Shown: in pieces, positions 30,312 to 33,476 of the stretch
Layout: the number at the start of each line of letters is the position of its first letter
Position numbering within the stretch: the first letter of the stretch is position 1
DNA from: an uncultured Pelagibacteraceae bacterium
Lineage (GTDB): Bacteria; Pseudomonadota; Alphaproteobacteria; Pelagibacterales; Pelagibacteraceae
DNA: 35,490 nt
Direction: 5' to 3'
NCBI GenBank assembly: GCA_902522955.1
Contig: CABYXR010000008.1
Coordinates: forward strand, 1-35,490
The notes under the pieces: model-generated
The model's database searches: none
What the model saw: the letters and a program-made list of their open reading frames with translations, nothing else
Told to the model about the DNA's origin: nothing
Made by a program: the position numbers and the translations under genes

Positions 30312-31244
30312 TTACTTTTCAGCTATCACAAATTGAATTCCTAACCATCTCCAGTAACCGTCATTTTTTTTTAAAGAACAGTTTATTCTGCCTCTTTCTC
30401 CTAAAAATTTTTCATCAATATAAATTTCAAGAATATTATTTTTTACAAATTTAATATTAGAATTTCTCCATTTATTACCTTCATTAGAATAACAATTTAA
30501 CAACTTGAGATTTTTAATGTTCTCATAAAATTCAATTTTTACTTTTGGCGGATTATTTTCATTTGATAAAAATTTTTCCTCTGGATAGATCTTTTTATAT
30601 TTAAGAGGAAGGGTTTTCGTAATTGTAGCAAATCTTTTAAGCTCACCATATTTTTCATTTATTGGAAATCTCGGAAGCTCAAAAAGATCTTTAGTAATAT
30701 CTATAACACCTGAGTGTTGACCGAGAGCATATTTAAAACCTAAATTTTTTATAATTTTTTTGAACTCCAAACTATACTCTCCAAACGGATAAGAAAAAAA
30801 ATCAGAGTTTTTTCCTAAGTTTTTTTTAAAGATATTGATTGAATTGACTATATCTTCTTTAATTTTATCAAAATTTTCATCTACCAAGTATTCGTGTGTG
30901 TGGCTGTGGTTCCCTATTTCAACAAAATTCTCTTTACTAATTTCTCTAATTTCGTCCCAATTCATATAGCCAGGAGCACCTACTTCTCGAGTGCTTATAA
31001 ATAAAATAAATGGTATTTTTTTCTCTTTTAAAATAGGCCACGCATGTTTATAGAAAGATGTGTAGCCATCATCTATAGTAAGTAAAATTTTTCTCTTCAT
31101 TTTTTTTTGAGACAAGTCTAGTTCAAAATTTGCAGGACTAACAAACTCAATATTTTGACTCTCAATAATTTCTAAGTGTTTTTTAAAATCATTGATTCTT
31201 ATATTTGTTGATGGATATTTATTTTCGTTAAATCTGTGATACAT
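30312..31244 (-). CDS. Polysaccharide deacetylase (NodB fold), start uncertain
   Basis: Carbohydrate esterase family 4-like. The NodB metal/catalytic motifs are ILLTIDDGYTSF (Asp58-Asp59) and GNHSHTHEYL (HSHTH at 113-117), with SYPFGEYS further on. From ATG 31244 it is 310 aa, but that ATG falls inside the domain-opening motif (MYHRF). The frame stays open 33 codons further upstream to 31343 and encodes a hydrophobic YIYIIFLF stretch followed by YSSAEKIG, which looks like a signal peptide and cleavage site. No ATG, GTG or TTG occurs in that extension, so the true start is unresolved. The C-terminal 80 residues form an extra domain I do not recognise. Confidence 0.85.
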   Translation of the reverse strand: MYHRFNENKYPSTNIRINDFKKHLEIIESQNIEFVSPANFELDLSQKKMKRKILLTIDDGYTSFYKHAWPILKEKKIPFILFISTREVGAPGYMNWDEIREISKENFVEIGNHSHTHEYLVDENFDKIKEDIVNSINIFKKNLGKNSDFFSYPFGEYSLEFKKIIKNLGFKYALGQHSGVIDITKDLFELPRFPINEKYGELKRFATITKTLPLKYKKIYPEEKFLSNENNPPKVKIEFYENIKNLKLLNCYSNEGNKWRNSNIKFVKNNILEIYIDEKFLGERGRINCSLKKNDGYWRWLGIQFVIAEK

Positions 31245-31322
31245 GATTGAAATAACACCAAAATCTTCTATACCAATCTTTTCAGCTGAAGAATAAAGTT
31301 TGTTTTGAGTAAATAAAAAAAT

Positions 31323-31336
31323 TATATATATATATA
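31323..31336. repeat. (TA)7 microsatellite between deacetylase and tsaB
   Basis: Seven uninterrupted TA units lie in the divergent spacer, 4 bases before the tsaB ATG and inside the possible signal-peptide extension of the deacetylase. Slippage by one unit would shift the frame of that extension. The tract may equally be part of the tsaB promoter. Confidence 0.7.
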
Positions 31337-31339
31337 AAA

Positions 31340-31723
31340 ATGATTAAAGATTTTTTAATAATTAATTGCACAGGTAACAGTGATAAAATTGGTTTAAGGA
31401 TCAATAATAATTTTTTTGTTCATAATTTTCAAACTAAAAATCATAATAATGAAGTCTTAGTATCTACAATATTGAATTTAATCACTAAGCACAAAGTAAA
31501 TATGAATAAAAATTTTTCAGTTCTTGTGAATAATGGCCCAGGCAGCTTTTCTTCGATAAGAGTCGCTCTATCAATAGCGAAAGGGATGAAAATTTCAAAT
31601 AATGTTAAATTGTATGGCTATAAAGATAAGGATTTATCCCTATTTAACCTTGAAAATATTGAAATTTTAATTAAAAAAAAATTAATACAAAAAAATTTGA
31701 TTAAAGCATTATATTTAAGTTAA
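31340..31723 (+). CDS. tsaB: Short TsaB-like protein (t6A37 tRNA modification)
   Basis: TsaB is the dimerising scaffold for TsaD in threonylcarbamoyl-adenosine synthesis at tRNA position 37. The diagnostic block VNNGPGSFSSIRVALSIAKG lies at about 63-82, preceded by FLIINCTG and DKIGLRINNN. The protein is only 127 aa against roughly 200-230 in well-known TsaB proteins, so most of the second ASKHA subdomain is missing. The ribosomal acetyltransferase gene rimI that often follows is absent; the Fur-family gene starts 9 bases later. It may be a minimal TsaB that keeps the dimer interface, or a remnant. Confidence 0.8.
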   Translation: MIKDFLIINCTGNSDKIGLRINNNFFVHNFQTKNHNNEVLVSTILNLITKHKVNMNKNFSVLVNNGPGSFSSIRVALSIAKGMKISNNVKLYGYKDKDLSLFNLENIEILIKKKLIQKNLIKALYLS

Positions 31724-32153: not shown

Positions 32154-33476
32154 TTGCAAAAAAAAATATTTATTAAAACTTTCGGCTGTCAAATGAATGA
32201 GTATGATAGCGATCGAATTATTGAAAATTTAAAAAGAATTGATTACACCCAAACTGCTGTTCCAGCTGAAGCTGATTGTTACATTTTAAATACTTGTCAT
32301 ATAAGAGAAAAGGCTACAGATAAAGTCTATCATGATATTGGCAGAGTAAAAAAAATTTTTAGATATAAAAAAAAACCTATAGTAGTTGTTGCAGGGTGCG
32401 TTGCTCAAGCAGAGGGTGAAATTTTAATGAAAAAAGAAAAATATATAGACTGTGTAATCGGTCCTCAATCTTATCATTATCTCAATAACATTTTACTTCA
32501 AGTAGAAAAAAAAAATGAGAAGATAAATTTCACTGAATTTGAAGCTGAAAATAAATTTGATAATTTAGAGAAGATTGAAAACTCACCTGGTAAGGTTTCT
32601 TCCTACCTAACTATACAAGAAGGTTGTGATAAATTTTGTAAATTTTGCGTTGTTCCGTACACAAGAGGACCTGAATTTTCAAGAAAAGTTGAACAAATAA
32701 TTTCTGAAGCAAAACAATTAGTCAGAAACGGAACAAAAGAAATAATTTTATTGGGTCAGAATGTAAATGCATACAATTATTCAAATAAAAATTTGTCGGA
32801 TTTAATACTTAAATTAGAGGAAATAAATGGATTAGAAAGATTGAGGTTTACCACTTCTCATCCAAAGGATATGAATGAAAACTTGATAAAGTTATTTAAA
32901 GTTTCTAAAAAATTAATGCCCCATTTACATCTACCAGTTCAAAGTGGATCAAATGTAGTATTAAAAAACATGAATAGAAAACACACTATAGAGGAGTATC
33001 TAAAGATCATTTATCAGCTCAAAGAAATTAATCCAAAAATTGAGTTTTCTAGTGATTTTATTATTGCCTACCCAGGCGAAACAGAAGAAGATTTTAATTT
33101 AACATTAAAACTTTTAAACGAAGTAAAATATATAAATACTTATTCTTATATTTTTAGCCCTCGTTACGGAACACCAGCAGCAAAATTAAATCTGATAGAT
33201 GAAAAAATTGCAAAGAGAAGATTAACTGAATTCCAAAACATTGCAGAAAAAATAAAAAAAGAATATAAAAGAAAATCATTAAATAAGACTCTAAAAGTTT
33301 TGTTTGAAAATAAAATAAATAATAGACAATTTTTCGGAAGAGATGAGTTTCAAAATTCTATTGTCGTGAATTGCAAAGATGATATTGTAGGTAAAGTCAT
33401 GAATGTTAAGATAAAAGATTTTAATCTTAATACTATGATAGGTGATTTAGTAGATAGTAAAAATCTAGCAGCATGA
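32154..33476 (+). CDS. miaB: tRNA-2-methylthio-N6-dimethylallyladenosine synthase MiaB
   Basis: Radical-SAM methylthiotransferase acting on i6A37 in tRNA. 440 aa. The N-terminal cluster Cys residues are in TFGCQMNEYDSDR, LNTCHIREKA and VAGCVAQAEG. The radical-SAM site is EGCDKFCKFCVVPYTRG (CxxxCxxC, near 152-168), followed by LLGQNVNAY and LPVQSGSNVVLKNMNRKHT. A C-terminal TRAM domain closes it. The start is TTG at 32154; the only nearby ATG would lose the first cluster Cys, so TTG is forced. It overlaps the next gene by ATGA. Confidence 0.96.
   Translation: MQKKIFIKTFGCQMNEYDSDRIIENLKRIDYTQTAVPAEADCYILNTCHIREKATDKVYHDIGRVKKIFRYKKKPIVVVAGCVAQAEGEILMKKEKYIDCVIGPQSYHYLNNILLQVEKKNEKINFTEFEAENKFDNLEKIENSPGKVSSYLTIQEGCDKFCKFCVVPYTRGPEFSRKVEQIISEAKQLVRNGTKEIILLGQNVNAYNYSNKNLSDLILKLEEINGLERLRFTTSHPKDMNENLIKLFKVSKKLMPHLHLPVQSGSNVVLKNMNRKHTIEEYLKIIYQLKEINPKIEFSSDFIIAYPGETEEDFNLTLKLLNEVKYINTYSYIFSPRYGTPAAKLNLIDEKIAKRRLTEFQNIAEKIKKEYKRKSLNKTLKVLFENKINNRQFFGRDEFQNSIVVNCKDDIVGKVMNVKIKDFNLNTMIGDLVDSKNLAA

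Follow-up and report, generated by a model that had tools for sequence, protein, structure and literature searches.

A (TA)7 tract where a putative deacetylase signal peptide is split over two frames in a Pelagibacteraceae genome

A NodB/CE4 deacetylase and its two reading frames

The window, a stretch of 35,490 nucleotides, belongs to an assembly with 37 contigs, a total of 919,904 bases and a completeness of 80.8%. Going by the titles of its relatives, we judged the genome to be that of a SAR11 bacterium, Pelagibacteraceae. On the minus strand lies the body of a polysaccharide deacetylase (30312 to 31244, 310 amino acids), counted from the called ATG at 31244, which opens the motif MYHRF, to the stop. 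The body belongs to the NodB/CE4 family, with a match to PF01522 of 97.2 bits compared to the curated Pfam cut-off of 23.1. Residues D91, D92, H146 and H150 are invariant in an alignment of 33 sequences, and we take them to be the Asp-Asp motif (D91/D92) and the His-x3-His metal motif (H146/H150) of NodB/CE4. The predicted model of the open frame, also made with 33 sequences, has a mean pLDDT of 89.7, and Foldseek assigns it a NodB/CE4 fold, with PgaB and IcaB first (PDB 3vus and 4wcj, E-values 6.8e-17 and 1.5e-16) and PplD also matched, at a probability of 1.00. PgaB and IcaB are exported poly-beta-1,6-GlcNAc deacetylases that have the fold and the motif residues in common with the window gene. 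In contrast, the window gene scores far under the NCBIfam equivalog cut-offs of both (86.6 compared to 321.9 bits for PgaB and 62.1 compared to 248.35 bits for IcaB), and it has a beta-rich C-terminal stretch that extends past the PF01522 match.

The initial annotation had placed the called ATG inside the NodB domain, and the model agrees, since the MYHRF Met is residue 34 of the open frame and sits in strand E30-35, and 4wcj, which is the best PDB match by sequence, begins at open-frame residue 26, eight residues earlier. A start at this Met would thus cut into a predicted strand. The body contains no stops, and its dN/dS between the window and G074, which at 84% over the region is the closest genome, is 0.085 at a dS of 1.3, which is near saturation, so that dN/dS cannot date the frame break described below. 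For the neighbours in the same pair of genomes, dN/dS is 0.092 (bax), 0.144 (tsaB), 0.148 (miaB) and 0.029 (fur). By this comparison the deacetylase body looks intact and constrained, and the frame break looks either recent or absent in life. Nearby, the frame at 32154-33476, which from its sequence we take to be miaB-like, opens with TTG, which may be a miscalled start or a genuine one.

From stop to stop, the frame of the body runs from 30312 to 31343 (minus) and has 343 codons, 33 of which precede the MYHRF ATG; these 33 codons (31245 to 31343, minus) contain no ATG, GTG or TTG, as the initial annotation had stated. The hydrophobic segment and the SSA cleavage-like site that it had described are both there, and so is the (TA)7 tract, at 31323-31336. 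Aligned with relatives, this open extension holds the distal half of a putative signal peptide, the SSA, a linker and the first part of the first beta-strand, and it lines up with the end of the relatives' signal peptide and with their GIISI strand. ATT and ATA codons occur in the extension, and no Lys or Arg precedes its hydrophobic stretch.

A conserved GTG start codon is found on the minus strand at 31371-31369, 26 bases beyond the end of the extension considered initially, and a Lys-Lys n-region follows it. In the window this GTG is out of frame with the body. The frame read from it (31282 to 31371, minus) has 29 codons before a TGA and holds the n-region and the first part of the h-region. 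The two frames part at the TA tract, within the stretch coding for the h-region, and the body frame takes over inside T5-(TA)7-T7, all of which is open in both frames; since T-runs flank the tract, the frames alone do not fix the site of the shift. Thus the predicted parts of the signal peptide (start, charged n-region, h-region and cleavage-like site) are spread over two frames in the window, whereas they lie together in one frame in relatives.

From the GTG, MYHRF is reached after 127 nt in the window compared to 123 nt in the genomes G017, G074 and G121. In G017, a (TA)5 run lies in the same surroundings and the frame is continuous, and two added TA units compared to G017 would be the simplest account of the difference in length. 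Tract length sets the frame, as at a contingency locus, with (TA)7 out of frame in the window and (TA)5 in frame in G017, which is of another species. G074 has no such run at the site, and so we infer the history of the tract.

The conserved start codon and the divergent tsaB-like gene

The deacetylase was found at E <= 1e-60 in 132 of 169 genomes of the genus. Leaving aside the window genome gives 131, and removing G099, in which the gene is at a contig edge, gives the 130 that we judged for an upstream start (G141 and G117 included). An in-frame ATG or GTG was found 28-56 codons upstream of MYHRF in 129 of these 130 genomes, and none was found in the window. The one other genome, G095, is open upstream, with only TTG codons at 28-56; its GTG lies farther off, at about 71 codons. 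The frame break was seen in none of the 130. A scan of contigs gave a similar picture: among the best 80 of 315 loci, 78 carry an ATG or GTG in frame within the same 28-56 codons, and two run into a contig edge; the two sets overlap, with public SAR11 genomes in both. At 343 amino acids, the open frame of the window is the shortest among the matches listed, G099 excepted. In a scan of viral contigs, 18 stretches fitted a pattern, and none of them was a relative of the deacetylase.

These results argue against the case that would have undone the initial reading, namely homologues that start at the same MYHRF Met with nothing conserved upstream. In the alignment, the relatives appear to carry an N-terminal export signal. 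The in-frame starts in 129 of 130 genomes suggest that an ordinary gene for a secreted deacetylase is present in the window as an out-of-frame allele, and not a gene with an ATT or ATA start. The latter had been proposed initially, and such codons do exist in the extension; however, the extension has no Lys or Arg ahead of its hydrophobic stretch, the conserved GTG and the charged n-region lie in the other frame, and the judged relatives have ordinary start codons. We rejected the rare start, which we regard as the least credible of the explanations considered here.

Divergent from the deacetylase lies a tsaB-like gene of 127 amino acids (31340 to 31723, plus), whose ATG is 3 bases past the TA tract. 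Its score to TIGR03725 (47.8 bits) is under the equivalog cut-off of 69.3, while its score to PF00814 (29.5 bits) is over the cut-off of 24.8. The protein is short compared to the 212 positions of the TsaB model; a length of 127 amino acids was also found in 24 of the 90 genomes anchored as described next, and many of the others may be truncated where the retrieved sequence stopped.

We aligned 90 of 128 genomes on the ATG of tsaB; the other 38 lacked this anchor. The column of the deacetylase start holds an in-frame ATG (41) or GTG (44) in 85 of these 90; the remaining five have another codon in the column, with an ATG or GTG slightly shifted. GTG makes up only 8.8% of the valine codons in these genes. 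The 5′ coding ends of the two genes thus overlap antisense, by 32 bases in the window (31340 to 31371), with column and frame shared by 85 of the 90 anchored genomes of the genus. The tsaB codon opposite the deacetylase start is TGC in 80 of the 90, TGT in one and TTC in five, and is out of register in four, compared to 202 TGT and 54 TGC among the 256 cysteine codons of the deacetylase bodies. Read from these codon counts, the preference for TGC in tsaB is the constraint on the start codon viewed from the opposite strand. Divergent overlaps are strongly under-represented among 58 prokaryotes surveyed, according to the available text of PMC2174442, which suggests that the conserved overlap of the deacetylase and tsaB is unusual.

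A perfect TATAAT was found at -30 to -7 of tsaB in 29 of 90 genomes compared to 6.8% in shuffles; since codons were not preserved in the shuffles, this excess is no more than suggestive. In the window, the best -10-like site before tsaB (31310-31339) matches TATAAT at five of six positions. From these sites, tsaB may be leaderless, with a putative -10 box within the codons of the deacetylase signal peptide.

TA runs, mismatch repair genes and other frame breaks

In 378,783 bases of the window genome, we counted 193, 19, 2, 1 and 1 TA runs of 3, 4, 5, 6 and 7 units, respectively, and the tract in the deacetylase is the sole run of at least seven units. Across the genus, (TA)7 is present in two of 169 genomes. 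As a control, an equally long alternating run in the other phase was found in five of 169, which shows that such runs are rare but not unique. The (TA)7 of the second genome, G090 (L254 1501-1514), lies inside an unbroken open frame of 435 codons. At the deacetylase site itself, the run has two units or fewer in 123 of 128 genomes, three units in three genomes, four in one and five in one (G017).

We found no mutS1 in any of the 169 genomes of the genus with a search that, as a control, was positive in 11 of 14 well-known genomes, and mutL was over the cut-off in none of the 169 (four weak matches). Both mutS and mutL are also missing from the deep-ocean SAR11 subclades Ic and IIa.A, according to the accessible part of PMC12374537. 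A genus without mutS and mutL makes slippage plausible. Frameshifts by slippage are known in bacteria without mismatch repair, and the genus likewise lacks both genes; the window differs in being a single observation in one genome, with a cause that we infer.

To survey frame breaks, we compared 205 orthologue pairs (200,103 coding bases) with stretches of G121, G005 and G067. Besides the deacetylase, one clear two-frame split was found, at nine A near 15206 of L243, and the relative of this gene in G067 is intact. N-termini opened late in six of 199 judged pairs, which are the deacetylase, the L243 gene and one each in L231, L235, L236 and L249; by eye, the last four are different start choices. 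C-termini were flagged in five of 205 pairs (two in L232 and one each in L238, L240 and L235). By eye, reading began before the likely start in the two of L232 and the one of L238, the flag in L240 is an apparent false antisense frame and that in L235 is a diverged gene end.

Possible origins of the frame break

The reading that we favour, with moderate confidence and from sequence comparison, is that slippage gave rise to a frame-broken allele of this PgaB/IcaB-like SAR11 deacetylase, otherwise an ordinary secreted enzyme, and that its true start is the GTG at 31371-31369. A frameshift at the TA repeat was among the initial proposals, and the comparison with relatives backs it (127 compared to 123 nt, and an in-frame (TA)5 in G017). 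The deacetylase would ordinarily carry a Sec-type signal peptide and start at the conserved GTG within the first part of the divergent tsaB. In the window, the stretch from the GTG to MYHRF is 4 nt longer than in relatives, which puts the start and the n-region out of frame. The TA run in the h-region is two units longer than that of G017, the sole relative with such a run there, and replication slippage in a lineage without MutS and MutL may have extended it. From the allele of the sequenced cell, the exported enzyme would be absent, or made only through rare frame errors. A real slippage event is probably behind the frame break, and an assembly error is its main rival; we deduce from one genome of the species that the extra bases would exist in the cell's own DNA, would stem from slippage and would abolish secretion.

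In the rival account, an error of this kind having also been suggested initially, the extra bases are an amplification, sequencing or assembly error at the TA repeat and the gene is intact in the living cell. The apparent constraint on an intact body and the absence of the break from the 130 other judged genomes fit such an artefact, and so does the L243 break, which shows that indel errors are possible in the window genome. A single-cell workflow averaged 3.0 indels per 100 kb in another lineage, in the available text of PMC8443664, although it may not be the workflow used for this genome, and two breaks in 200 kb are not above that rate, which may not apply here. The part of PMC5519541 at hand, which concerns the same kind of workflow, gave no indel rate. 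The L243 break and the quoted rate keep an artefact a strong rival. In contrast, only one other clear two-frame split turned up in the whole survey, and the window tract differs from that of the in-frame G017 by exactly two TA units, a change expected of slippage. On balance, we consider an artefact plausible but less likely than a real slippage event.

It is doubtful that the tract is a reversible on/off switch, as was also proposed initially, in which fast changes in TA copy number would let part of the population secrete the deacetylase. In such a switch, tract length might further adjust the transcription of tsaB, because the ATG of that gene follows so closely. The longest TA run in the bases sampled does lie among the codons for an exported protein, in a genus in which mismatch repair genes were not found, and the body appears constrained though its frame is broken. 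A documented switch, with (TA)9-11 between the divergent genes hifA and hifB of Haemophilus influenzae (PMC2651432, as far as its available text goes), also has its tract between two divergent genes; however, the hif tract belongs to a promoter region, where a change of spacing is the proposed effect, whereas the window tract is in signal-peptide coding sequence and changes the frame. Against a switch, the repeat is not conserved, as nearly all relatives have no TA run above two units there, seven units are short, and the rarity of (TA)7 in the genus gives no sign that such repeats are in general use. It is more doubtful still that TA copy number toggles both surface export of the deacetylase and spacing of the tsaB promoter, so that one slippage would reset two divergent overlapping genes. 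Programmed ribosomal frameshifting or transcriptional slippage at T5-(TA)7-T7 could rescue the protein, given that these T-runs and TA units lie where both frames are open. This is very improbable, since the 130 other judged genomes do not need it, their frame being continuous.

The MYHRF Met is not the true start, which corrects the gene call, and the case shows how gene calling can overlook a conserved start codon that lies antisense within tsaB. Literature searches on SAR11 or Pelagibacter phase variation, simple sequence repeats and microsatellite frameshift listed no title on a repeat-based on/off switch in SAR11. Should tract length differ among cells of the population, this abundant marine group, which lacks mismatch repair, would have a surface switch of the on/off kind.
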